Of a DNA stretch of 64,000 nt, positions 1,037-19,784 are shown piece by piece. The DNA comes from Crambe crambe (taxonomy: Eukaryota > Porifera > Demospongiae > Poecilosclerida > Crambeidae), in NCBI GenBank assembly GCA_963924555.1, contig OZ004596.1, forward strand, positions 1,240,001 through 1,304,000, read 5' to 3'. A model generated the notes under the pieces. It saw nothing but the letters and a program-made list of their open reading frames with translations. It did no database searches and had not been told where the DNA came from. The position numbers and the translations under genes are program-made. Position 1 is the first letter of the stretch, and the number at the start of each line of letters is the position of its first letter.

Positions 1037-1635
1037 GGCAATGTCGCAGGATTATGATGACAATGATGGCTCAGTGATGGTTCTTTTCTGTTCTAGGGGT
1101 TTTGACTCTGTCCTTTAATAGCTAGCTGCTCCCTCTTGGTATCCCAGGTCGACCATATCCACTGGATTTTATTTATCCATCAAGGTGATTGAAGCAGACC
1201 TAGGTGATGCCCATCGAACACTTAGAGCTAAAGATTGTTATTTAAGAATTTCATAGTAAGTCTTCAGAATGCATGGAACTATTTGCTTAGATGTTGTTGT
1301 CCTTCAGCTTCAATTGATGAATCCTGCCATTTTGGTCATAGTTTATGACACTTGAGAATGTCATCTCAAGTAGATCTTCATGAAAATAAGGAGGAAACAT
1401 CACATGAAAGAGGAAGAATCTTGATGCTGTGAATTCACAGAGACATTCCTCTATAGATAACCCCAAGAGAAGGGAATGTCCCTCTAATCAAGATAATAGA
1501 GAAAGTCATTTAGTTCTACTATAAAGTCTAGAAAACATGACCTTTGTGAGGAGTTATAGCTAGTAAAGTACACACAGTCATAAAAATATAAATAAGAGAA
1601 CATAAAGAGAGTCTAGTTTATTAACTATGGACAGT
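1037..1635. other. array spacer between FReD copies
   Basis: No gene seen. Contains the shared upstream promoter region of copy A and a spacer block at about 1310-1530 that recurs near 5880-6110, 9060-9290 and, inverted, 14,700-14,870. The site AATGTCCCT at 1475-1483 is the unoccupied counterpart of the transposon insertion at 10,165. Confidence 0.7.
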
Positions 1636-2425
1636 CCTCTTAGTTGCATATGGTTTTCACAGCGCATCTCTTTGGGCGTATCTTCATGTGAACTTTAGTG
1701 TACCATCATACCAGGTCAGCCTACTAGCAGCATCTCCTGGTATTTGAATTGTAAGATTAGTACCAGACAACACTTGAAATACCACCACACTATGACGATC
1801 GCAAGTGCTAAAAAATCTTCCATATGACGGGCTATTGAATCATGTGTCCTTTGGCCTGTCCAATGTTGATCTCTTAGTTGCATGTGGTCTTCACAGTGCA
1901 TCTCTTTGGACGTATCTTCATTTGAACTTTACTGTAATTGACCCTTTTTGATCCATCATGCCAGACGAGCCTATTAGCACTTGTACCAACCATGGGGTTC
2001 ATACTTCACTACCTCACCACACGAGATGACATGGAACTACGCATTGAACTTGGGAATGGGTCAGCAGTACCTACTCGTCTGGACCTATCCTACGCTGGAT
2101 AACCAACCACTTTCCTCCATCTACGCACTACTGGAAACAAAACTCTCAGAAGAACCACACACACCAGCCAATTCATAGCTATCAGTAGAAGGCGAAGGCA
2201 TCAACTTCTTGATCTGAAGATAACAAAGCATCATGAAAATCATGCACTCAATTGCCTACATGTAAGTGCACACTCACCTAACAGCAGTCATGGTAACCTG
2301 CTGTGCCACAGCTCTCACTGGAGGACATCAAATCCTTCAGTAATTGTTGGTGGTGCTTTCCACAGTCAGGGGATTCGACATTAGCAAGGAGAAAAGGTTG
2401 CAATAATAATGCTGATGACACCCAT
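1636..2425 (-). pseudogene. mosaic FReD pseudogene with an internal inversion
   Basis: Minus-strand remnants of the 3' part of FReD exon 2 lie at 1636-1868 and again, from a second copy, at 1869-2005. A piece at about 2010-2088 is on the opposite (+) strand and encodes the TTRDDMELRIELGNGS-type segment. Then 2088-2225 (5' part of exon 2) and 2277-2425 (exon 1) are minus again. Exon 1 starts with ATG but one extra base in the signal-peptide region brings a stop within 15 codons. Large parts of the domain are missing. It is a composite of at least two broken copies. Confidence 0.85.
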
Positions 2426-3213
2426 GGCAATGTCACAGGATTATGATGACAATGGCCATGAAAACAAGTAATCTTGTTCTGGGGAAGGCTTTGACTCTGT
2501 CTTTTTATAGCTATAGTTGCTCTGAGTCTCCCCTCTTGGAGTCCTGAATCACCAGGTGTGCATGCATGTGCGCAAGTATTTCAGTTTGTTTATTCATTCA
2601 AGGTGAGCTTAGAAGCAGGCTGTACCTAAAGAATGGTTGGCACTCAAATTCAAAAATGAGTCATGCACATGTTCTTGTTTGTTCAAGGTGAGTTTAGAAG
2701 CATATGCTATACTGTCTATAGCTTAATGCTTAAGATTGAAATGAATCACGTTTGCCTTGTTTATCCAAGGAAGAGATATTGCTATCATAGCCTGGAATGA
2801 ATCACATGTTTGCCTTTATTGTTGCTGCTTATATGATTTCTCAAGGTGAGCTTGGAAGCAGATCTTGGTGATGCCTACCTATAGCTAGTGCTAAATTTTG
2901 AGTTCAAGATTGGATGGTTCAGAAGTCTGAGCAGTTTCACAAATGCTCGGAAATAACCCTTACCAAGCAGGATTTCATCTAAGGAGTGGGGCACAGGAGA
3001 AGCCCCTACTTTGTCAAACAGGAAGTGTTGTCTCTGTATGCAATGGTTAACAGTGGAATGTCTCTATTAGTTAAGAATAAGACATGAACTTTGTGAAGAG
3101 CTATATCTAGTGACTAAATGTACACATTCACAAAAACCAAATAAGAGAACTGTGCGTTTCTAATAGAGAAAGACTGTTCAACATAATATATTTGACAAGT
3201 CCTTGCAGATCTC
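2426..3213. repeat. array spacer with reiterated TTCAAGGTGAG motif
   Basis: No gene. The motif TTATTCAAGGTGAGYTTAGAAG, or a variant, recurs at about 2590, 2675, 2756 and 2833. The second half (2880-3213) is nearly identical to 7560-7884 and marks a recent segmental duplication that includes FReD copies B and E. Confidence 0.75.
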
Positions 3214-4105
3214 TTAGTTGCATGTGGTTTTCACAGTGCATCTCTTTGGACGTATCTTCATTTGAACTTTAGTGTAATGGACACTTTCATTCCAGACGAG
3301 CCTAGTAGCTCCTGCAGTAGTATATCCACCATCTTCTGGAGTGTGGGGTTCATACTTCCCATTGAGATTAGAATAGTGGCAGGCACCATACCACCATGCT
3401 CCTCCATAGACTTTAGCACAATTACGATTCCATGCATCATTATCACGATCTCGAGTACTGAAAGATCTTCCATTGTGATAGGCCATTGAATCATGTGTAC
3501 CTCCCACTCCTTTGGCCTGTCCAATGGTCAGTTGGTACTTAGTTTCAGCCCCTCCCACTCTGAAGAGCTGGTAGGTCCAGACTTGAGTAGGTACTGACCC
3601 ATTCCCAAGTTCAATTCGTAGTTCCACATCATCTCGTGTGGTGAGGCAGTGGATCTTTTCCAGTCCATACCAAAATTCTCCCTCCAGATCTCCAAAGCCG
3701 TACACATAGTCAGTCCAATTGCGATAGAAGTCGACAGAGCCGTTGATCCTACGCTGGATGACCAACCACTTTCCTCCATCTGTCTCCATATCACAACGAG
3801 CATGCACTTTACTGGAACCAAAACTCTCAGAAGAACCACACACATCAGCCATTTCATAACTACCAGTAGCAGCTGAATGCATCAACTTCTTGATCTGAAC
3901 ATAACTAACATGAAAATCATGCATAATTGCCTACATGTAAGTGGACACTCACCTGGCAGCAGTCATGGTAACCTGCTGCACCACAGCTCTCGCTGGAGGA
4001 CATCAAATCCTTCAACAATTGTTGGTGGTGCTTTCCACAGTCAGAGGAAATGACTTCCACATTAGCAAGGAGAAAGGCTGTAATGATAATGCTGAGGACA
4101 CCCAT
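3214..4105 (-). CDS. FReD copy B: secreted fibrinogen-related-domain protein, intact
   Basis: Exons 4105-3953 (51 codons) and 3894-3214 (226 codons plus stop), phase-0 junction; predicted 277 aa. Signal peptide MGVLSIIITAFLLANVEVIS, then a complete fibrinogen C-terminal domain. The calcium-loop pattern DRDND is kept before RNCA, and the pocket reads GGAWWYGACHYSNLNGKY. The 5' half of exon 2, including the unusual MHSAATGSYEMADVCGSS stretch, is nearly identical to copy E, but the pocket half is not and instead resembles copy I. A TATA box (TATAAAAG on the minus strand, 4196-4189) lies about 85 bp upstream of the ATG. Secretion and ligand recognition are inferred from family membership. Confidence 0.92.
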
Positions 4106-4188
4106 GGCAATATTGTGATGACGATGATGGTTCAGTGAAACAAGTGATGAGATAGTCTTTGTTCTGCGAAAGTCGTTGACTCTTTGTC

Positions 4189-4196
4189 CTTTTATA
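4189..4196 (-). promoter_or_regulatory. TATA box of FReD copy B (array promoter module)
   Basis: Minus strand reads GAGCAGCTAGATATAAAAGG. The same GAGCAGCTAG-TATAAAAG arrangement sits about 65-90 bp upstream of the ATG of copies D (7159-7166), E (8887-8894), G (11861-11868, shorter), I (16401-16408, plus) and J (19867-19874). Copy A has a decayed version at 1113-1120. Confidence 0.7.
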
Positions 4197-4732
4197 TCTA
4201 GCTGCTCCCTAGCCCTTGGTATCCCTGACTACCCAGGAATATGGGTCTGAATATATTAGTTTATTTATCACATGTTTTTTTTATTATTGGCTGTTTATAT
4301 GCTATGGAATTATTTTTTTGCCACATTTCTCTGTTTATTATTGATTTTAGAGAATAAATGAAACTGATACACAAGGCCCAACTTCTGCATTGACTAAACT
4401 GTTATGAGATTTCTGAGTTCAAGATTGGATGCTTCTAGTAGAGTTCAGAAGTCTCAGCAGTTTCAAAAATGCTCGTTTTACCTTACCAAGCAGATTTCAT
4501 CATGTAAGGAGGGGGCACAGGGGAAGCTCCTCTCCCCCCAAGAAGCCTAATTTCCCCAACAAAATCCCCAATCCCCCCCAAGGGTTTCTGGTCTCTGGTC
4601 TCTGCATGCAATGGTTAACAGTGGACAACTTCCACCCCAAATTGATAAAACCCTGCCAAGTAACCCCCTTCAGAACCAGCACATTATGGTTACCTGCTGG
4701 TCACTGTAATCACCAAATGGAAATACATACAG
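4197..4732. other. array spacer
   Basis: No gene seen. A roughly 200-bp pyrimidine-rich part (4440-4620) reappears inverted at about 15,880-16,080, next to the mirror-image FReD copies H and I. Confidence 0.6.
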
Positions 4733-5173
4733 GGGCTGGTACACTTCCACCATCTTCTGGAGTGTTATATATATACTTCCATTGCGATTAGAGATTAGAC
4801 CCAAAACACACATTGAGCCATCACACTCCTCCATATACTACAGCACAATTACTATGCCATGCATCATTGTCACAATCTCGAGTGCTGAAAATAAGAAAGG
4901 TCTTCCATTGTGATGGGCCATTGAATCATGTGTACCTCCCACTCTTTTAGCCTGTCCAATGGTCAGTTGGTACTTAGTTTCAGCCCCTCCTACTCTGAAG
5001 AGCAGACTTGCCGGGAACACATCATGTAGTGCACACTTTCATCTGACAGCAGTCATGGCAACCTGCTGCGTCACTACTAGGTTAAATCCTTGGTGGTGCT
5101 TTCCACAGTCAGAGGAAATGACTTCCACATTAGCAAGGAGAAAGCTTGCAATGATAATGCTGGGGACACCCAT
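4733..5173 (-). pseudogene. FReD copy C: truncated pseudogene
   Basis: Minus-strand remnant: the 3' and middle part of exon 2 (about 4733-5005), then a deletion that joins it almost directly to exon 1 (about 5030-5173). Exon 1 keeps its ATG and signal peptide but has lost part of the linker, and its donor reads ATGAAA instead of GTGAGT. The central fibrinogen core is missing. It shares diagnostic features with plus-strand copy H, so both descend from one already damaged copy. Confidence 0.85.
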
Positions 5174-6208
5174 GGCAATGGCACAGGATTTTTATTTTGT
5201 TTTTTTGTTTTTATTTGTAAGGCTTTGACTCTGTCTTTTTATAGCTAGTTGCTCAGAGTCTCCCCTCTTGGAGTCCCGAATCACCAGGTGTGCATGCATG
5301 TGCACAAGTATTTCAGTTTGTTTATTCATTCAAGGTGAGCTTAGAAGCAGACTGTACCTAAAGAATGGTTGGCACTCAAATTCAAAAATGAGTCACATGT
5401 TCTTGTTTATTCAAGGAGAGTTTAGAAGCATTATGTTATACTGTCTATAGATTAGCACTTAAGATTGAAATGAATAACATTTTCCTCATTTATTCAAGGT
5501 AAGTTTAGAAGAGATATTGATAATATGTATCATAGCCTGGAATGAATCACGTTTGCCTTTATCATTGCTGCTTAAGTTATTATTATTTAGAGAACGAATG
5601 GAAGTCATACACAAGGCCTGTAGCTTATGCATATGTAAACATGTGATGAGATAGTTCTTGTTCTGGGAAAGGCAAGTGGCCATGAGCACATGAAATACAG
5701 TATGCATGATTCTGAAGTATTCCAGTTTAGTTGTTTATCTATCAAGGTGAGCTTAGAAGCAGATCTTGGTGATGCCCATAGAATACCTATAGTGCTAAAT
5801 TCACATAATTGCAGCATCATGCATTCAGCTTTAGCATAGTAAGTCCTCAGAATCACAAAGTTCAGCTTCGATGATTGGTTTACCCATTTTTGGTCATAGT
5901 CTATGACACTTGAGAATGTCATCTCAAGTAGTCTTCATGAAAACAAGGAGGAAATATCACACGAAAGAGGAAGAATCTTGATGCTGTGAATTCACAGAGA
6001 CATTCCTCTATTGTTTGCCGAACTATATAGATAACCCCAAAAGAAGGGAATGTCCCTCTAATCAAGATAATAGAGAAAGTCATTTAGTTCTACTATAAAG
6101 TCTAGAAAACATGACCTTTGTGAGGAGTTATAGTTAGTAAGGTGCACACAGTCATAGTTTTCTAACAGGGAGAGACTTGTTATCAACTATGGACAGTCCT
6201 GGCAGATC
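5174..6208. repeat. array spacer with reiterated motifs
   Basis: About 1 kb without a gene. The TTCAAGGTGAG-type motif recurs near 5325, 5408, 5490 and 5733. The part 5870-6130 is a copy of the 1310-1540 spacer and contains a second unoccupied AATGTCCCT site (6049-6057). Confidence 0.65.
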
Positions 6209-7077
6209 TTAGTTGCATGTGGTTTTCACGGTGCATCTCTTTGGACGTATCTTCATTTGAACTTTAGTGTAATGGCGGTAGATTGATCCATCGTACCAGC
6301 TAAGTCTGTTAGCACCACGTGTAACACCAGCACCATCTTCTGGTGTGTGAAGTACGTAGCCCCCATTGAGATTAGACGTAAAACACTGCTCATATCACCA
6401 TGCACCTCCGTATGCTCGGGCACAATTACGTCTGCCATCATTATTACGATCTTTAGTACTGAAAGGTCTTCCATTGTGATGGGCCATTGAATCATGTGTA
6501 CCTCCCACTCCTTTGGCCTGTCCAATGGTCAGTTGGTACTTAGTTTCAGCCCCTCCCACTTTAAAGACCTTGTAGGTCCAGACTTCAGTAGGTACTGACC
6601 CATTCCCAAGTTCAATGCGTAGTTCCACATCATCTGATGTGGTGAGGCAGTGAATCTTTTCCAGTCCGTACCAAAATTCTCCCTCCAGATCTCCAAAGCC
6701 GTACACATAGTCAGTCCAATTGCGATAGAAGTCAACAGACCCATTGATCCTGCGCTGGATGACCAACCACTTTCCTCCATCTGTCTCCATGTCACAGCGA
6801 GCATGCACTTTACTGGAACCAAAACTCTCAGAAGAACCACACACACCAGCCATTTCATAGCTACCAGTAGCAGCCGAAGGCATCAACTTCTTGATCTGAA
6901 CATAACGAACATGAAAATCATGCACTCAATTACCTACATGTAGTGCACACTCACCTGACAGCAGTCATGGTAACCTGCTGCATCACAGCTCTCGCTGGAG
7001 GACATCAAATCCTTCAACAATTGTTGGTGGTGCTTTCCACAGTCAGAGGAAATGACTTCCACATTAGCGACACCCAT
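6209..7077 (-). pseudogene. FReD copy D: recently inactivated copy
   Basis: Gene-shaped copy: exon 1 at 7077-6955 and exon 2 at 6895-6209, reading frame otherwise conserved to the usual TTCN-stop. Two lesions are visible. First, an in-frame 30-bp deletion in exon 1 removes the ten residues after MGV, which is the hydrophobic core of the signal peptide. Second, the second Trp codon of GGAWW is TGA (6397-6395), truncating the domain before its last cysteines. The downstream sequence still reads as a good FReD pocket close to copies E and J, so the stop is young. Stop-codon readthrough is conceivable but would not restore secretion. Confidence 0.88.
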
Positions 7078-7884
7078 GGCAATGTCGCAGGATTATGACA
7101 ATGGTGGGTATGAAAACAAGTAATTTTTGTTTGTTCTGGGGAAGTGCTTTGGCTCTGTCTTTTATAGCTAGTTGCTCATAGTCTCCCCTCTTGGAGTCCT
7201 GAATCACCAGGTGTGCATGCATGTGCGCATAATTATTATGATCAAGTATTTCAGTTTGTTTATTCATTCAAGGTGAGCTTAGAAGCAGACTGTACCTAAA
7301 GAATAGTTGGCACTCAAATTCAAAAATGAGTCACATGTTCTTGTTTATTCAAGGTGAGTTTAGAAGCATATGCTATACTGTCTATAACTTAGCACTTAAG
7401 ATTGAAATGAATCACGTTTGCCTTCTTTTATTCAAGGTGAGTTTAGAAGAGATATTGCAATCATAGCCTGGAATGAATCACATGCCTTTATTGTTGCTGC
7501 TTATACTCAAGGTGAGCTTAGAAGCAGATCTTGGTGATGCCTACCTATAGCTAGTGCTAAATTTTGAGTTCAAGATTGGATGGTTCAGATGTCTGAGCAG
7601 TTTCACAAATGCTCAGAATAACCCTGTTTCATCTTACCAAGCAGGATTTCATCTAAGGAGTGGGGCACAGGAGAAGCCCCTTTATCAAACAGAAAGTGTT
7701 GTCTCTGTATGCAATGGTTAACAGTGGAATGTCTCTATTAGTTAAGAATAAGACATGAACTTTGTGAAGAGCTATATCTAGTGACTAAATGTACGCATTC
7801 ACAAAAACCAAATAAGAGAACTGTGCGTTTCTAATAGAGAAAGACTGTTCAGCATAATATATTTGACAAGTCCTTGCAGATCTC
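7078..7884. repeat. array spacer, near-duplicate of 2450-3213
   Basis: No gene. Carries the promoter module of copy D, four TTCAAGGTGAG-type motifs (about 7258, 7345, 7430, 7503) and a 325-bp end (7560-7884) nearly identical to the spacer next to copy B. Confidence 0.7.
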
Positions 7885-8797
7885 TTAGTTGCATGTGGTT
7901 TTCACGGTGCATCTCTTTGGACGTATCTTCATTTGAACTTTAGTGTAATGGCGGTAGATTGATCCATCATACCAGCTAAGTCTATTAGCACCAGTCGAAA
8001 TACCAGCACCCGAAATACCAGCACCATCTTCTGGTGTGTGAAGTACGTAGCCCCCGTTGAGATTAGACGTAAAACACTGTCCATACCACCATGCACCTCC
8101 GTATGCTCGGGCACAATTATGTCTGCCAGCATTATTACGATCTTTAGTACTGAAAGGTCTTCCATTATGTAAACTCATTGCATCATGTGTACCTCCCACT
8201 CCTTTGGCCTGTCCAATGGTCAGTTGGTACTTAGTTTCAGCCCCTCCCACTCTGAAGAGCTGGTAGGTCCAGACTAGAGTAGGCACTGACCCATTCCCAA
8301 GTTCAATGCGTAGTTCAACGTCATCTCGTGTAGTGAGGCAGTGGATCTTTTCCAGTCCATACCAAAATTCTCCCTCCAGATCTCCAAAGCCGTACACATA
8401 GTCAGTCCAATTGCGATAGAAGTCAACAGAGCCATTGATCCTACGCTGGATGACCAACCACTTTCCTCCATCTGTCTCCATGTCACAGCGAGCATGCACT
8501 TTACTGGAACCAAAACTCTCAGAAGAACCACACACATCAGCCATTTCATAGCTACCAGTAGCAGCTGAATGCATCAACTTCTTGATCTGAACATGACGAA
8601 CATGAAAATCATGCACAATTGCCTACATGTAAGTGCACACTCACCTGACAGCAGTCATGGTAACCTGCTGCATCACAGCTTTCACTAGAAGTTATCAAAT
8701 CCTTCAACAATTGTTGGTGGTGCTTTCCACAGTCAGAGGAAATGACTTCCACATGAGCAAGGAGAAAGGTTACAATGATAATGCTAAGGACACCCAT
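7885..8797 (-). CDS. FReD copy E: secreted fibrinogen-related-domain protein, intact
   Basis: Exons 8797-8645 and 8586-7885, phase-0 junction; predicted 284 aa. Signal peptide MGVLSIIIVTFLLAHVEVIS, then a complete FReD. The 5' half of exon 2 and the downstream spacer are almost the same as in copy B, while the pocket (DRNNAGRHNCARAYGGAWW, CFTSNLNGGYVLHTPEDG) matches copies D and J. The DxDND calcium pattern is replaced by DRNNA, so calcium binding may be lost. A 15-bp in-frame duplication produces GAGISGAGIS in the pocket loop. TATA box at 8894-8887 on the minus strand. Confidence 0.92.
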
Positions 8798-9339
8798 GGC
8801 AATATTGCAGGATTATGATGACAATGATGGCTCAGTGATGATTAAGCAAGTGATAAGATATTGTTCTAGGGGTTTTGACTCTGTCCTTTTATAGCTAGCT
8901 GCTCCCTCTTGGTATTCCAGGTCCATATCCACTGGATTTTGTTTATCCATCAGGTGATCTAGCTTAGAAGCAGACCTTGGTGATGCCCATAGAACACTTA
9001 GAGCTAAAGATTGTTATTTAAGAATTTCATAGTAAGTCTTCAGAATGCATGGAACTATTTGCTTAGATGTTGTTGTCCTTCAGCTTCAATTAATGAATCA
9101 CGAGCATTTACCCATTTTTGGTCATAGCTTATGGCACTTGAAAATGTCATCTCAAGTAGATCTTCATGAAAACAAGGAGGAAACATTACATGAAAGAGGA
9201 AGAATCTTGATGCTGTGAATCCACAGAGACATTCCTCTATTGTTTGCATAACTATATAGATAACCCCAAGAGAAGAGAATGTCCCCTAATATTTGTTTCT
9301 ACTATAAAGTCTGACCTTTGTGAAGAGCTATAGCTCGTA
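8798..9339. other. array spacer
   Basis: No gene. Promoter module of copy E (TATA at 8887-8894), then a diverged copy of the 1310-1500 spacer block. Confidence 0.6.
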
Positions 9340-9767
9340 GGGTATCTTCATTTGAACTTCAGTGTAATGGACCCAGTCAGATCCATCATACCAGACGAGC
9401 CTACTAGCAGCATCTCCTGGTATTTGAATCATATTAAGATAGTACTGGTTTGATAACACTTGAAATACCACCATGCTCCTCCATATGTTGCAGCACAGTT
9501 ATGATTCCATGCATCATCATCACAATCTTGAGTGCTCCTTTGGCCTGTCTGATGGTCAGTCGGTACTTAGTTTCAGCCCCTCCCACTCTGAAGAGCTGAT
9601 AGGTCCAGACTTGAGTAGGTACTCAATTCATAGTTCCATGACATCTCATGTGGTGAGGCAGTGGATCTTTTCCAGTCCATACCAAAATTCTCCAAAACCA
9701 TACACATAGGAAGTCCAATTGCGATAGAAATCAACAGAGCCATTGATCCTACGCTGGATGACCAACA
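9340..9767 (-). pseudogene. FReD copy F: exon-2 pseudogene fragment
   Basis: Minus-strand remnant covering roughly the last two thirds of exon 2, from the tail (9340) to the RRINGSVDF region (9767). Several internal deletions and frameshifts; no exon 1 or 5' end of exon 2. Similarity ends abruptly at 9767. Confidence 0.82.
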
Positions 9768-10164: not shown

Positions 10165-10173
10165 AATGTCCCT

Positions 10174-10761
10174 TAGTCTCGCGCGCCAGACCTTTCTGCA
10201 GACGGAAGGGGAGGGGGAAGGGAGGGAAAGGTCTGGTAACTATTGACAGGTTTTCGTGGACCCCAATCAGATTTCAGATTTTAAAAATTGGTGTTGCTGT
10301 CACGAGATTATCAGATGGACCATCTAAAGTTCACGTGGCAAACTATCGATCGCAGCTGTCATGTACAAGGAGAAAGAGATTTTAAAATGCTATACAAGAT
10401 GTGACAAAGAAATGGGTATTCTAGTCTTCGTGAAAAGCAAGAAGAGATCATGAAACATTTTCTCTCTGGTCGTGATACTTTCGTGAGCCTTCATACTGGC
10501 AGTGGTAAATCTCTTTCTGTGTTTGACAAACTGAGAAGGACATCCTCCAGTTCAATAGTTGTAGTAGTTAGTCCGCTCATGAAGGATCAAGTGATTGCTA
10601 TGCTATGAACCAATCTCTCTGAGCACGCGCTAGCTCTCGTGTAATCATCTGATTATGTGACTGCAACATTCCGGAGGTCCACGAAAACCTGTCAATAGTT
10701 ACCAGACCTTTCCCTCCCCCCCTCCCCTTCCGTCCGCAGAAAGGTCTGGCGCGTGAGACTA
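10174..10761. mobile_element. Pack-MULE-like element with ~90-bp terminal inverted repeats and 9-bp target duplication
   Basis: The ends are inverted repeats: left 10,174-10,262 begins TAGTCTCGCGCGCCAGACC, and right 10,674-10,761 ends with the complement GGTCTGGCGCGTGAGACTA. They match over about 88 bp, including a purine-rich block and ACTATTGACAGGTTTTCGTGGACC. A perfect 9-bp direct repeat, AATGTCCCT, flanks the element (10,165-10,173 and 10,762-10,770). The same site occurs unoccupied at 1475 and 6049 in paralogous spacers. Long inverted repeats with 9-bp duplications are typical of Mutator-like elements. There is no transposase; the 410-bp interior holds a helicase gene fragment, as in Pack-MULEs. 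The superfamily is inferred from structure only. Confidence 0.85.
10412..10608 (+). pseudogene. captured RecQ-like helicase fragment inside the transposon
   Basis: From about 10,412 the plus strand reads GYSSLREKQEEIMKHFLSGR, followed by TFVSLHTGSGKSLSVF and later VVVVSPLMKDQVIAML, then a stop at 10,606-10,608. HTGSGKS is helicase motif I (Walker A) and SPLMKDQV is the motif Ia region typical of RecQ-type superfamily 2 helicases. The Q-motif side (FSSLREKQEE) also fits. There is no start codon context and the upstream frame is closed, so this is a gene fragment, not a working helicase. Confidence 0.75.
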
Positions 10762-10913
10762 AATGTCCCTCTAATGAGTCCACTATAGTGTCATTAGTTT
10801 GACAATCTCATGACAGCTATTGGTAAATGCTATTTATGCTACACACAATCACAAATTAGCACATGAATGGTAACTACATATAGTTTTCTGAGACTTCTGT
10901 TTATATTGTTATG

Positions 10914-11801
10914 TTAGTTGCATGTGGTTTTCATGGTGCATCTCTTTGGACGTATCTTCATTTGAACTTTAGTGTAATGGCGGTAGATTGATCCATCATG
11001 CCAGGCGAGCCTACTACCACTATCTCCTGGTACTTGAATTATATATGGTCCATTAAGATTTGTACCTCTAACATAACAGCTATGAAACCACCATCCTCCT
11101 CCATACACTGCAGCACAATTACGACTCCATGTATCATTGTCACGATCTCGAGTACTGAAAGGTCTTCCATTATGTAAAGCCATTGCATCATGTGTATCTC
11201 CCACTCCTTTGGCCTGTCCAATGGTCAGTTGGTACTTAGTTTCAGCCCCTCCCACTCTGAAGAGCTGGTAGGTCCAGACTAGAGTAGGCACTGACCCATT
11301 CCCAAGTTCAATGCGTAGTTCCACGTCATCTCGTGTGGTGAGGCAGTGAATCTTTTCCAGTCCATACCAAAATTCTTCCTCCAGATCTCCAAAGCCGTAC
11401 ACATAGTCAGTCCAATTGCGATTGAAGTCGACAGAGCCATTGATCCTACGCTGGATGACCAACCACTTTCCTCCATCTGTCTCCATGTCACAGCGAGCAT
11501 GCACTTTACTGGAACCAAAACTCTCAGAAGAACCACACACACCAGCCATTTCATAGCTACCAGTAGCAGCCGAAGGCATCAACTTCTTGATCTAAACATA
11601 ACCAAGATTACTTACTTGCACACTCACCTGACAGCAGTGCACACTCACCTGACAGCAGTCATGGTAACCTGCTGCATCACAATTTTCACTGGAAGATATC
11701 AAATCCTTCAACAATTGTTGGTGGTGCTTTCCACAGTCAGAGGAAATGACTTCCACATTAGCAAGGAGAAAGGTTGCAATGATAATGTAGATAGTTCCCA
11801 T
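10914..11801 (-). CDS. FReD copy G: secreted fibrinogen-related-domain protein, intact
   Basis: Exon 1 at 11801-11649 (51 codons, signal peptide MGTIYIIIATFLLANVEVIS) and exon 2 at 11591-10914 (225 codons plus stop); predicted 276 aa. The acceptor is TTTAG instead of the array's usual TTCAG. A 21-bp tandem duplication repeats the exon-1 end and donor, so a second donor 21 bp downstream would add seven residues (VSVHCCQ) in frame. The FReD keeps the DRDND calcium pattern. The pocket GGGWWFHSCYVRGTNLNGPY resembles copy A, but the following SIYRHYTKV matches copies D and E, another mosaic sign. TATA box 11868-11861. Confidence 0.9.
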
Positions 11802-13712: not shown

Positions 13713-14016
13713 GCATTTAAAGCTCTTTTTCTCAGTTGTCATTATTAATCTCAAACCACTTATATTTTGACACCTGCCAACGTTTGGTCTTCTTCAAGTA
13801 AACCCGAGTTCATCCTCGAATGAATGTCATGAAGTGACAGGTAAAAGCCAGAATTCATTCTTGAAGAGGTAGCTATAATTAATGTCATCAAAAAAAAATG
13901 TTCTATTTAGTCAGAAGGATTTGTGACTTCTGAAGACTGAAGGTCAAAATAAGTTGTTTGAGATGAAAAAGTTAATATAATCGTAGGAAGTCATTTTAGC
14001 CCCACCCATTTTGAAA
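13713..14016. other. spacer downstream of the DHX34-like fragment
   Basis: No gene seen. Short imperfect inverted matches around GAATTCATTC and CATTCATTCGAGG are the only structure noted. Confidence 0.4.
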
Positions 14017-14190
14017 GGCCATTGAATCATGTGTACCTCCCACTCCCTTGGTCTGTCCAATAATCAGTAGTTTCAGCCCCTCCCACTCTGAAGACCTGGT
14101 AAGTATCAGTAGATACTTGACCCATTCCCAAGTTCAATGCATAGTTCCACATCATGTATGGTAAGTGGAGTGTACCAAAATTCTCCTTCC
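14017..14190 (-). pseudogene. short FReD exon-2 fragment
   Basis: Minus-strand remnant of the middle of exon 2 (region encoding the THDSMA to GEFWY part), with several small deletions. No exon 1. Confidence 0.75.
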
Positions 14191-15296
14191 ATATCTATAT
14201 GTTATGGAATTATTTTTGGCCACATTTCTCTGTTTATTATTTAAAGAACAATGAAAGTCACCAACTTCTGCATAGAGTAAATTGGACTTCTGAGTTCGAG
14301 ATTGGATGAGTTCAGAAGTCTCAGCAGTTTCAAGTCAAAGTTAAACAAGTGACGATAGAGTAGAACTCTAAACTTCTCTATTATCTTGATTAGAGGGATT
14401 GCTTCAATTGATGAATCCCCAGCATTTACCCATTTTAGGTCATGGTATTAGCTTTTATGACACTTGAGAATGTAAACAAGAAACATCACATGAAAGAGGA
14501 AGAATCTCAGTGCTGTGAATTCACAGAGACATTCCTCTTTTGTTTGCACAACTATAGATAAAATTATATAACCCCAAGAGAAGAGAATGTCCTCTGCTTA
14601 TGCAGAAGCTAAACTTTGTGATGAAACAAAAGACAAAGCATCTATAAGCAAACAGTTCCATTCATTCTAAGGACTTACTGTGCTAAAAGCTGTGATTTCT
14701 TTGAAATAACAATCTTCAGCATTATAGAGGAATGTCTCTGTGAATTCACAGCATCTAGATTCTTCCTCTTTCATGTGATGTTTCCTCCTTGTTTTCACGA
14801 AGATCTACTTGAGATGACATTCTCAAGTGTCACAAACTATGACCAAAAATGGGTGATTCATCAATTGAACCTATCATCGAAGCTGAACTTTGAACAAGTC
14901 TAAGCAAACAGTTCCATTGCATTCTGAAAACTTACTATGCTAAAGCTGTGAAATAGGAATGTTATGTGATTAAAATTCAGCACTAGCTATAGCTAGGTAT
15001 TTTATGGGTATCACCAAGATATGGCTCACCTTGATGGATAAACAACTATGCATACCATGCTCATGCCAACTATCTCATCACATGTTTACATATGCAGAAG
15101 CTATAGGCCTTGTGTATAACTTCCATTCGTTCTCTAAATGACAAACTTAGAAATCATGATAAGCAGCAACAATAAAGGCAAACATGTGATTCATTCCAGG
15201 CTATGATAGATATTTCTTCTAAACTCACCTTGAATAAACGAGGCAAATGTGCATGATCATAATAATTATACACACATGCATGCACTCCTGGTGATT
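14191..15296. repeat. array spacer with the orientation switch of the array
   Basis: No gene. The spacer block with TGTGAATTCACAGAGACATT occurs in minus-copy orientation at about 14,390-14,590 and as its reverse complement at about 14,720-14,870, forming a broken palindrome. Everything left of it reads as minus-strand units, and copies H and I to the right are plus-strand units. The breakpoint of the inversion therefore lies near 14,600-14,720. TTCAAGGTGAG-type motifs are present in reverse at about 15,035 and 15,220. Confidence 0.7.
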
Positions 15297-15692
15297 TGGG
15301 ACTGCAATTGGATTGACTATGTGTACAGCTTGGAGGGAGAATTTTGGTAAGGATTAGAAAAGATCCACTGCCTCACCACAAGAGATGACAGGGAATGGGT
15401 CAGTACCTACTCATGTCTGGACCTATCAGCTCTTCAGAGTGGGAGAGGCTGAAACTAAGTACCAACTGACCACCATTGAACAGGCCAAAGGAGTGGAAGG
15501 TACACATGATTCAATGGCCTATCACAATGAAAGACCTTTCAGTGGAAGACCTTTCAGCACCCAAGATCATGACAATGATGTGGCATAGTAATTGTGCTGC
15601 AGTATATGGAGGAGCTTAATGTGTGTTTTAGCTCAATGGAAGTACATATATAACACTCGAGAAGATGGTGGAAGTGTACCAGCCCCTGTACT
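15297..15692 (+). pseudogene. FReD copy H: plus-strand pseudogene, mirror partner of copy C
   Basis: Plus-strand exon-2 remnant starting at the WTDYV region. It has a stop in the GEFW stretch (TTTTGGTAAGG), a deletion before NGSVPT, a duplicated GRPFS block and a stop before NCAAVYGGA. Its end (CACTCGAGAAGATGGTGGAAGTGTACC) corresponds, inverted, to the start of copy C, and the flanking spacer matches too. Confidence 0.83.
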
Positions 15693-15947
15693 ATTTCCAT
15701 TTTGGTGATTACATTTAACTAGTGTTACTTCTTATAGACAAGGACCAGTAGATGCTGGTTCTGAAGGTGGTTTATTATGTGCACTAGGGTTACTTCTAAA
15801 TTACTAAGGTAAACTGGTTACTTGGCAGATTTAGGGTGGAAGTTGTCCACTGTTAACCATTGCATGCTCGTATTCTAAATATCCTTGGGGGGATGTGTTT
15901 GGGATTTTATTGGAAAAAATAGGCCTCTTGGGGGAGAGGAGTTTCCC

Positions 15948-16484: not shown

Positions 16485-17368
16485 ATGGGTGTTCTCAGCA
16501 TTATCATTGCAACCTTTCTCCTTGCTAATATGAAAGTCATTTCCTCTGACTGTGGAAAGCACCACCAACAATTGTTGAAGGATTTGATGTCCTCCAGTGA
16601 GAGCTGTGGTGCAGCAGGTTACCATGACTGCTGTCAGGTGAGTGTGCACTTACATGTAGGCAATTGTGCATGATTTTCATGACGCTTTATTATGTTCAGA
16701 TCAAGAAGTTGATGCCTTCGGCTGCTACTGGTAGCTATGAAATGGCTGGTGTGTGTGGTTCTTCTGAGAGTTTTGGTTCCAGTAAAGTGCATGTTCGCTG
16801 TGACATGGAGACAGATGGAGGAAAGTGGTCGGTCATCCAGCGTAGGATCAATGGCTCTGTTGACTTTTATCGCAATTGGACTGACTATGTGTACGGTTTT
16901 GGAGATCTGGAGGGAGAATTTTGGTACGGATTGGAAAAGATCCACTGCCTAACCACACAAGACGACATGGAACTACGCATTGAAATTGGGAATGGGTCAG
17001 TACCTACTGAAGTCTGGACCTACCAGCTCTTCAGAGTGGGAGGGGCTGAAACTAAGTACCAACTGACCATAGGACAGCCCAAAGGAGTGGGAGGTACACA
17101 TGATTCAATGGCCTATCACAATGGAAGACCTTTCAGCACTCGAGATCATGATAATGATGCTAATTGTGCTAAAACCTATGGAGGAGCATGGTGGTATGGT
17201 ACCTGCCACCATTCTAATCTCAATGGGAAGTATGAACCCCACACTCAAGGTGGTACTGCAGGAGCTAATAGGCTCGTCTGGTATGATGGATCAAATCGGG
17301 TCCATTACACTAAAGTTCAAATGAAGATACGCCCAAAGAGATGCACTGTGAAAACCACATGCAACTAA
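16485..17368 (+). CDS. FReD copy I: secreted fibrinogen-related-domain protein, intact, inverted
   Basis: Exons 16,485-16,637 and 16,700-17,368, phase-0 junction; predicted 273 aa. Signal peptide MGVLSIIIATFLLANMKVIS, then a complete FReD with calcium pattern DHDND placed directly before NCAKTYGGAWW. The pocket reads CHHSNLNGKYEPHT, closest to copy B. It is the only intact plus-strand member, with a TATA box 84 bp upstream of the ATG. The block copy H-spacer-copy I is the inverted counterpart of copy C-spacer-copy B. Confidence 0.92.
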
Positions 17369-18285: not shown

Positions 18286-18576
18286 CAAGTGCAAGTTCAA
18301 TGCATAGTTCCACATCATCTCCATGTGGTAAGTGGATCTTTTCCAGTGTACCAAAAATTAATTATATAAGACACATAGTTGAATTTCGATAGAAGCTCAT
18401 TGATCCTATGCTGGATGACCAACTACTTTTCTCCATCTGTCTCCATGTCACAGTGAGCATGCACTTTACTGGTCTCAGAAGAACCACACACACCAGCCAT
18501 TTCATATTTACCAGTAGCAGCCAAAAGCATCAAATTCTTGATCTGAACATAAAAGACATTATAAACTTGCTGAGAA
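18286..18576 (-). pseudogene. FReD copy K: fragment of the 5' half of exon 2
   Basis: Minus-strand remnant from the intron acceptor (TTTATGTTCAG region, about 18,551) through the RRIN, WTDYV and DDVEL parts, with small deletions and frameshifts. The pocket half is missing, as is exon 1. Confidence 0.8.
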
Positions 18577-18880
18577 GGAGCTTTTGCATAGTAGGTCAGT
18601 TGGAACAGATGATTATTTCTCTGTGAGAATGTTCACAAGACACAAGGGTTTGTGTAGTCCCTCTAATCAAGAGAATTTAAAAGGTCTGCTATTGTATTGG
18701 AAGTCGTTAATAGTTCTCCTAAGACATGAACTTTCTTTATGAAGAGCTATAGCTAGTTAGTAACTAAATGTACACATTCACAAAAATCAAAATGGACTTC
18801 ACAAGAGAACTAGATGATTTTCTAATAGAGAGAGAGGCTAAAATAATGTTCTCAATGACAAACAGTCCTGGCAAAATCTC
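18577..18880. other. array spacer
   Basis: No gene seen; diverged spacer sequence like that at 3040-3200. Confidence 0.5.
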
Positions 18881-19784
18881 TTAGTTACATGTGGTTTTCA
18901 CAGTGCATGTCTTTGGACGTATCTTCATTTGAACTTTAGTGTAATGAATCCAGCCTGATCCATTATTCCAGCTAAGTCTGTTAGCACCACGTGTAACACC
19001 AGCACCATCTTCTGGTGTGTGAAGTACGTAGCCCCCATTGAGATTAGAGTCAAAACACTGCTCATACCACCATGCACCTCCGTATGCTCGGGCACAATTA
19101 CGTCTGCCAGCATTATTACGATCTTTAGTACTGAAAGGTCTTCCATTATGACGTGCCATTGAATCATGTGTACCTCCTACTCCTTTGGCCTGTCCAATGG
19201 TCAGTTGGTACTTAGTTTCAGCCCCTCCTACTCTGAAGAGCTGGTAGGTCCAGACTTCAGTAGGTACTGACCCATTCCCAAGTTCAATGCGTAGTTCCAC
19301 ATCATCTCGTGTGGTGAGGCAGTGAATCTTTTCCAGTCCGTACCAAAATTCTCCTTCCAAATCTCCAAAGCCACTCACATAGTCAGTCCAATTGCGATAG
19401 AAGTCGACAGAGCCATTGATCCTACGCTGGATGACCAACCACTTTCCTCCATCTGTCTCCATGTCACAGCGAGCATAGACTTTACTGGAACCAAAACTCT
19501 CAGAAGAACCACACACACCAGCCATTTCATAGCTACCAGTAGAAGCCAAAGGCATCAACTTCTTGATCTGAACATAATAAAGCATTATGAAAATCATGCA
19601 CTTGATTGCCTACATGTAAGTGCAGACTCACCTGACAGCAGTCATGGTAACCTGCTGTGCCACAGCTTTCCCTGGAGGACATCAAATCCTGCAGTAATTC
19701 TTGGTGGCGCTTTTCACAGTTGGAGGAAATAACTTCTACATTAGCAAGGAGAAAGGTTGCAATGATAATTTGGATAGTTCCCAT
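18881..19784 (-). CDS. FReD copy J: secreted fibrinogen-related-domain protein, intact
   Basis: Exons 19,784-19,632 and 19,567-18,881, phase-0 junction; predicted 279 aa. Signal peptide MGTIQIIIATFLLANVEVIS (same MGT type as copy G). The linker is the most diverged of the array (SSNCEKRHQELLQDLMSSRE). The FReD pocket has DRNNAGRRNCARAYGGAWW and CFDSNLNGGYVLHTPEDG, close to D and E, with the DxDND calcium pattern altered. TATA box 19,874-19,867. Confidence 0.92.

Follow-up and report, generated by a model that had tools for sequence, protein, structure and literature searches.

The fibrinogen-related proteins (FREPs) of the snail Biomphalaria glabrata, one of the closest described systems to the genes considered here, are recognition proteins with a fibrinogen domain, whose variants are attributed, in the available text of two reports, to gene conversion and point mutation (PMC7588048, PMC12074976). 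The FREPs of Drosophila likewise form an expanded fibrinogen-domain family, for which the accessible part of PMC2429915 names tandem duplication and shuffling as sources, and the placozoan clusters of secreted FReD/intelectin genes, from another early-branching animal, encode single-FReD proteins of about 250 residues with a signal peptide, mostly clustered, according to the passages available of PMC6321704. The Sp185/333 (SpTransformer) genes of sea urchins are also small, clustered, two-exon immune genes, discussed together with gene conversion in the accessible portion of their literature. The subject of this analysis is a cluster of FReD genes in the sponge Crambe crambe, lying in a window of 64,000 nucleotides (positions 1,240,001 to 1,304,000 of contig OZ004596.1, assembly GCA_963924555.1), and in particular two of its copies, B and E, in which the segment encoding the ligand pocket diverges between near-identical flanks.

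The window lies on contig C19 (chromosome 16) of an assembly of 143.1 Mb in 119 contigs. The gene-shaped copies on C19 are nine, namely Y and X, just upstream of the window, and A, B, D, E, G, I (plus strand) and J; the preliminary description of this stretch had counted seven. The examined copies consist of two exons, with the whole FReD in exon 2. On the minus strand, exon 2 occupies 3214-3894 in B and 7885-8586 in E, as defined by the open frame and the PF00147 profile match (190 bits and E-value 5.5e-56 for B, 173 bits and 8.1e-51 for E, against a cut-off of 22), and exon 1, located from sequence and translation, occupies 3953-4105 and 8645-8797; it has 153 bases (51 codons) in both, as the GT-AG intron has 58 (3895-3952 and 8587-8644). 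Exon 1 of B begins with MGVLSIIITAFLLANVEVISS, which is signal-peptide-like, followed by a short piece containing Cys, and no collagen or immunoglobulin (Ig) part was seen in exon 1 of A, B, E and G, as read from the translations with no domain search of this exon. The AlphaFold model of B, with a predicted local distance difference test score (pLDDT) of 79.2 (57.5-79.2 over five models), has tenascin-R, L- and M-ficolin, FIBCD1 and tachylectin 5A among its top Foldseek matches in the PDB (E-values of about 1e-20 to 1e-22).

The profile of differences between B and E bears out the earlier proposal of an internal divergent block within near-identical flanks. The 3' spacers (2508-3213 for B and 7165-7884 for E) differ at 22 of 687 sites (3.2%), the high identity reaching about 700 bases past the gene, farther than the 2880-3213 and 7560-7884 previously noted; the last 22 codons and the stop differ at 3 of 69 sites, the intron at 4 of 61, exon 1 at 12 of 154 and the remainder of exon 2 at 11 of 404 (2.7%). 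Within the pocket block (minus strand, 3283-3490 in B and 7954-8180 in E) 60 of 203 sites differ (30%), with 29 gap columns besides, which gives a binomial tail of 4e-36 against the pooled flank rate of 52/1375. The block is limited on one side by the conserved 3' tail of the exon and on the other near the GGTHDSM motif. Its silent sites jump too, the silent divergence (dS) between B and E being 0.12 (0.117) in the N-block of exon 2 and 0.65 in the pocket, while silent differences occupy 10/129 and 12/46 same-residue codons, respectively; amino-acid selection alone therefore cannot explain the divergence. As had also been proposed, the pocket of E is nearest to those of D and J and that of B to that of I.

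The claim that B and E were recently duplicated fares less evenly. It is supported by the 3' spacers, but the near-identity in the first half of exon 2 extends to every one of the nine copies, B and E having an average dS there, and thus gives no sign of a recent duplication of this pair. ADVCG and, upstream of it, MHSAATG are found in the translations of B and E only, among the nine copies. Collinearity extends over some 2.9 kb, B and a degenerate copy in 1310-4160 corresponding to E and D in 5868-8866; if the pocket and the scrambled degenerate copy are set aside, most windows are 82-100% alike and a few 65-77%.

Four pocket types are found among the nine copies: A/Y, G/X, B/I and D/E/J. The N-block shows a dS of 0.06-0.19 across all 36 pairs, while pocket dS is 0.04-0.15 within types and 0.20-0.82 between them. 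The count of silent differences at same-residue codons, a check that is independent of how changed residues are aligned, gives 64/741 for the N-block and 14/389 for the pocket within types, and 292/3702 and 267/1318 between types. Since the pocket has fewer silent differences than the N-block within types, it does not mutate faster, and a faster-mutating pocket is rejected; rather, the pocket is older, the age of its lineages being several times that of the scaffold that carries them.

The genealogies of the segments disagree accordingly with one another. The pairwise homoplasy index (PHI) is significant for the C19 copies (p<=0.0002), as is MaxChi for B/E (p=0.002), E/D (0.002) and E/J (0.004). 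When trees were built for five segments (5' flank, exon 1 plus intron, N-block, pocket, and 3' tail plus flank), the approximately unbiased (AU) test rejected all 20 foreign trees, with a largest p of 0.018, the pocket data rejecting the N-block tree by 149 log-likelihood (lnL) units and the N-block data the pocket tree by 28. On C19, the Spearman correlation between N-block and pocket distances is 0.15, compared with a mean of 0.63 and a minimum of 0.32 in 100 column permutations. A smooth divergence profile with one tree for all segments, which the preliminary description had named as the contrary outcome, was not seen, as the segment trees reject one another.

Copy E shows the pattern within a single gene. 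Its 5' flank (8798-9086) is most A-like, at 81-100% per 60-column window and 96-100% in the distal windows (100% of 14 and of 49 sites, and 96% of 54), and 7885-9344 is collinear with 156-1570, extending past the flank at 83%. Around the intron E is close to D and I, and its N-block is like that of the other copies; the pocket is nearest to D/J, its end showing no difference from D and G at 60 sites, and the 3' spacer is nearest to B (about 98%). E is a three-way mosaic, with an A-like 5' flank, a D/J-type pocket and a B-like 3' side, and no single parent pair fits it.

Beyond this cluster, a profile search found PF00147 matches in at least 81 places of the genome, mostly clustered on C5 (chromosome 3), C8 (chromosome 5), C9 (chromosome 6), C18 (chromosome 15) and C19. 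The set analysed comprises 48 of them, that is, the 49 best-scoring minus one C21 copy (1278845) which has one stop and is nearest to C9, with a likeness of no more than 74% to any of the copies compared; two further C21 copies, of another subfamily, were dropped, leaving 46 genes for the comparisons of dS, entropy and nearest relatives, and among the other 32 places analysis was confined to those on C19. A set of 44 copies excludes the two on C1, and the structure alignment holds 42 sequences, two of them from C21. The two C21 copies that were dropped lie at 5578541-5580369, and one of them is the best PF00147 match of the genome. The largest FReD cluster lies on C5 at 989188-1054476, with 20 copies in the analysed set, several recombinants and very different pocket motifs of its own.

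In one gene on C5, C5_999k, the 5' flank, exon 1, intron and start of exon 2 are of the type found locally on C5, and sequence of the C18 type takes over at about +250-300 of exon 2. The gene is 90-100% like C5_990 between -300 and +239 of exon 2, with C18_4788 reaching 35-48% upstream of the exon; between +300 and +659, C18_4788 reaches 72-95% and five C5 relatives 26-82%. Past the last codon, a further 45 bases are 87% like C18_4788, and BLAST similarity then ends. C5_1037k is 91% like C5_999k over 3.6 kb, so the transfer predates their duplication. In constrained trees, grouping these two genes with C18 is rejected for the 5' half (lnL difference 182) and grouping them with C5_989/990 for the 3' half (230, AU 0.002). 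C5_999k/1037k is thus clearly an interchromosomal hybrid, with a C5-type 5' half and a C18-type 3' half, joining sequence of chromosome 3 with sequence of chromosome 15.

Other recombinants were found within C5. C5_990 and C5_1027 switch partners at about +200-300 and about +400 of exon 2, respectively, and C5_1027 carries the 3' flank of its partner, C5_1007, for at least 500 bases; two columns of the C5_990k profile were not used, that of C5_989k, which likely reflects a self-overlap between neighbouring genes, and that of C8_6436k, which has few entries. The two nearest relatives by N-block and by pocket form disjoint sets in 18 of the 46 genes, compared with a mean of 5.4 and a maximum of 10 in 300 permutations of codon columns. 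PHI is significant in C5, C8, C9 and C19, C1 and C14 falling outside the test with two copies each. On C9, 3448783 and 3451529 have 99% identical pockets and 100% identical 250-base 3' flanks, together with 10 silent differences in the N-block; this pair is a candidate for a recent conversion or crossover.

These results are very probably explained by ectopic homologous recombination, in the form of short gene conversion and unequal crossing-over, acting in a dispersed family of small, putatively secreted lectins with a single FReD, similar to ficolins and tachylectin 5, which would account both for B/E and for the cluster. Homology arms between paralogues would be provided by the conserved sequences, namely the first part of exon 2 and the 3' tail and flanks; exchange would keep the scaffold alike in all copies while old, divergent pockets persist on different backgrounds, and pocket segments could end up elsewhere within the cluster and, once clearly, on another chromosome. 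The segmental conversion or recombination that had been suggested for B and E is strongly supported by PHI, MaxChi, the AU trees, the type-limited silent divergence and the interchromosomal hybrid. Mosaic genes, discordant trees, old pockets on young scaffolds and one hybrid between chromosomes are all present in this genome, and the discordant segment genealogies and bounded tracts between paralogues place the family among multigene families diversified by gene conversion.

Several results weigh against this explanation or narrow it. All comparisons are between paralogues within one assembly of one individual. A GENECONV-like run test, a check which had been recommended for this locus, gave four significant tracts (D-G, Y-B, D-J and X-D), but none for B-E or E-D at 0.05. 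With the more conservative Shimodaira-Hasegawa (SH) test, two of the 20 foreign trees were not rejected (exon 1/intron against N-block, each way, 0.28 and 0.22), and monophyly of the C5 copies for the 3' half, rejected by AU (lnL difference 32, 8e-6), was not rejected by SH (0.09). PHI is not significant in the four-copy C18 cluster (p=0.27 and 0.47), and a higher dS in the pocket than in the N-block is seen in only 4% of C19-C8 pairs and 12% of C5-C8 pairs. The ratio of nonsynonymous to silent differences (pN/pS) over 18 disjoint pairs is 0.92 in the pocket (bootstrap 0.72-1.16) and 0.23 in the N-block, which fits either diversifying selection at some pocket sites or relaxation; it is not significantly above 1, and positive selection is not proven. 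Finally, a recent donation of the pocket from D or J to E is rejected. When the 3.2% of the B/E spacers was taken as the rate, with exact site counts and equal spacer and silent rates assumed, the E-D and E-J pockets showed 7.8 and 7.2 silent changes against 1.8 expected (P=0.0005 and 0.002), while B-I showed 3.0 against 1.5 (P=0.2) and D-J 4.5 (P=0.1). Given this excess over the spacer clock, neither D nor J gave a pocket to E after the spacers became alike, and the pocket of E is older than the B/E spacer similarity.

For B and E themselves, a reading that is compatible with ectopic recombination in the family at large is that both pockets are old and native, and that the flanks were homogenised or transferred up to the pocket edge. 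To this we give a little less than an even chance. It agrees with the likeness of the N-block in all nine copies and with the age of the E-D and E-J pockets relative to the spacers; furthermore, the likeness of B and I extends to exon 1, the intron and the distal 5' flank (92-100% per window), and the pocket of B may therefore be native. The 2.9-kb collinear segment, however, has the look of a single segmental duplication. Either B acquired a pocket of the I type, or the donor of E lies outside the assembly, or a B-like 3' side arrived beside an older E pocket. The case is wider than the preliminary description saw, and the history of B and E is less simple than it claimed.

Ectopic recombination between paralogues could also be read more broadly, as a genome-wide pool of pockets moved across chromosomes by conversion onto a homogenised scaffold and forming a combinatorial germline repertoire, possibly highly polymorphic between individuals and possibly active in somatic cells as well; this we consider rather unlikely. 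Exchange in the germline, with pocket diversity retained, fits the data, and it is in the germline that we infer the events to have occurred.

Unequal crossing-over in tandem arrays, acting with no conversion, would suit the long C5_1007 flank of C5_1027 and the junction in E of an A-like 5' side with a B-like 3' side. We hold it to be improbable as the sole process, since the C18-type 3' half of C5_999k/1037k, on another chromosome, is bounded on both sides by non-C18 sequence and the pocket of E corresponds neither to that of A nor to that of B. A dedicated site-specific or somatic system, in which pocket segments would be inserted as cassettes from degenerate donors, has still less to commend it and is very improbable. 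It would agree with the restriction of divergence to the pocket and with the seven degenerate pieces of the cluster, but these are only 72-86% like their best intact matches, and they are rejected as recent donors. A fixed cassette boundary is likewise rejected, as breakpoints vary: the left ones lie at about +200-300 in C5_999k and C5_990k and at about +400 in B/E and C5_1027k, and the right ends of tracts range from the exon tail to more than 500 bases past the stop (resolution 60-100 bases). Left breakpoints in the conserved part of exon 2 together with variable right ends fit homologous recombination, not a cassette enzyme.

Point mutation with no recombination at all, the amino acids of the pocket being under diversifying selection or relaxed constraint and the rest under purifying selection, would be in keeping with the contrast in pN/pS and with the concentration of entropy at pocket positions (mean 1.53 bits, compared with 0.45 in the N-block, over the 44 copies). 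It is scarcely credible in view of the silent jump between B and E, the lack of extra silent pocket change in same-type pairs, the conflicting segment trees and the interchromosomal hybrid, and pure selection on amino acids is rejected by the silent differences. A collapse of near-identical copies in the assembly, conceivable where N-blocks are 90-100% alike over hundreds of bases, can hardly be the explanation, as the assembly is described in the available text of PMC12166358 as HiFi, 459-fold and QV (quality value) 58.1, and the mosaics lie on more than one chromosome, with segments that differ by several per cent from their closest relatives instead of forming exact joins.

The divergent block is the part of the domain where ligand contacts would be expected from FIBCD1, whose S1 acetyl site is formed by Cys401, Tyr405, Cys414 and His415 according to the available text of PMC3908420. 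The pocket block encodes the equivalents of these four residues, assigned by counting from two invariant cysteines; B has Tyr and His at the Tyr405 and His415 equivalents, and E Tyr and Phe. Both Cys are present in 44/44 copies, while Tyr is found at the first of these positions in 16 and His at the second in 3 (B, I and one C5 copy), to which both C1 copies can be added (5/46, with Tyr). The equivalents of Tyr405, Asn413 and His415 take 11, 10 and 8 different residues in the 44 copies. The diversity of the pocket is probably kept by selection, and the products are probably soluble lectin-like proteins, judging from the modelled fold and the signal-peptide-like start. Recognition of microbes or symbionts is their likely role. 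Fibrinogen-domain genes respond to microbial molecules in Dysidea avara and to lipopolysaccharide in Halichondria panicea, as far as the accessible text of the two reports goes (PMC6208332, PMC8242945).

Exon 2 of the remaining gene-shaped copies of the window lies on the minus strand at 156-827 (A, pocket type common to Y), 6209-6895 (D, with one in-frame TGA within its D/E/J-type pocket), 10914-11591 (G, pocket type common to X) and 18881-19567 (J, D/E/J type), and on the plus strand at 16700-17368 (I, inverted, pocket type common to B). The cluster also holds at least seven degenerate FReD pieces, one of them upstream of the window. That at 1640-2450 is collinear with D and partly inverted, its FReD piece at 2004-2081 being in the opposite orientation; copy C, at 4700-5160 (minus), has its best match in B (82%), 9342-9766 (minus) has a best match of 72%, and 15304-15723 (plus) is 75-78% like its five best intact matches, while 14006-14196 and 18292-18579 (both minus) are fragments of the N-block. 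Between E and G, an element at 10173-10762 has terminal inverted repeats of about 90 bases (stretches of 50 and 45 bases, 94-96% complementary) and an 8-base repeat, ATGTCCCT, on both flanks; its inside encodes what is presumably a fragment of a RecQ-like helicase, and it looks like a non-autonomous hAT-like transposon carrying captured helicase sequence. The Pfam neighbours at 25677-57495 are a YEATS/AHD protein, an alpha/beta hydrolase, an IntS14-like protein, a mitochondrial DNA polymerase exonuclease, a RIO kinase and a Ras family member. Elsewhere in the assembly, mitochondrial COX1 reads through with TGA as Trp, and its contig of 19,532 bases also has a match to ATP synthase subunit c (atp9-type).

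Sponges diverged early in animal evolution, live with dense microbial communities and are not known to possess adaptive immunity of the vertebrate type. If the present reading is true, recognition proteins are diversified by recombination in animals other than bilaterians too, and it is the FReD pocket itself that this process alters. The signature of an old pocket on a young scaffold, read from silent divergence by segment, offers a simple test for any FReD family, and the microbial response of fibrinogen-domain genes in two other sponges makes the functional question testable. In the open-access literature, which was searched in part, no description of FReD paralogues exchanging their pockets in a sponge was found, so that this is weak evidence of novelty.

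Compared with the systems described above, the snail FREPs differ in having immunoglobulin superfamily (IgSF) domains and in that their variants come from cells of one snail, whereas the sponge copies are single-FReD paralogues of one assembly; an IgSF domain upstream of the FReD is not seen in the translation of the two-exon model, whose 51-codon exon 1 has no room for it. In the sponge it is the FReD pocket itself that is exchanged. The ficolins, FIBCD1 and tachylectin 5A, among the best solved-structure matches, share the fold and the Cys framework, but the collagen-like stem of the ficolins was not seen, exon 1 of A, B, E and G having a signal-peptide-like start and some 30 residues with no Gly-X-Y. 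The Sp185/333 proteins are a family unrelated to FReD, with a repeat-based diversity. In the Drosophila FREPs, the pocket core is described as conserved and the term gene conversion is absent from the available text of PMC2429915, and the placozoan genes are classified as intelectins, with pocket exchange unmentioned in the accessible part of PMC6321704. Gene conversion in fibrinogen-domain immune proteins is already known from snails, and recombination that shuffles recognition segments is a familiar kind of evolution; what would be new is that the host is a sponge, that the FReD pocket is the part concerned and that one case links two chromosomes.

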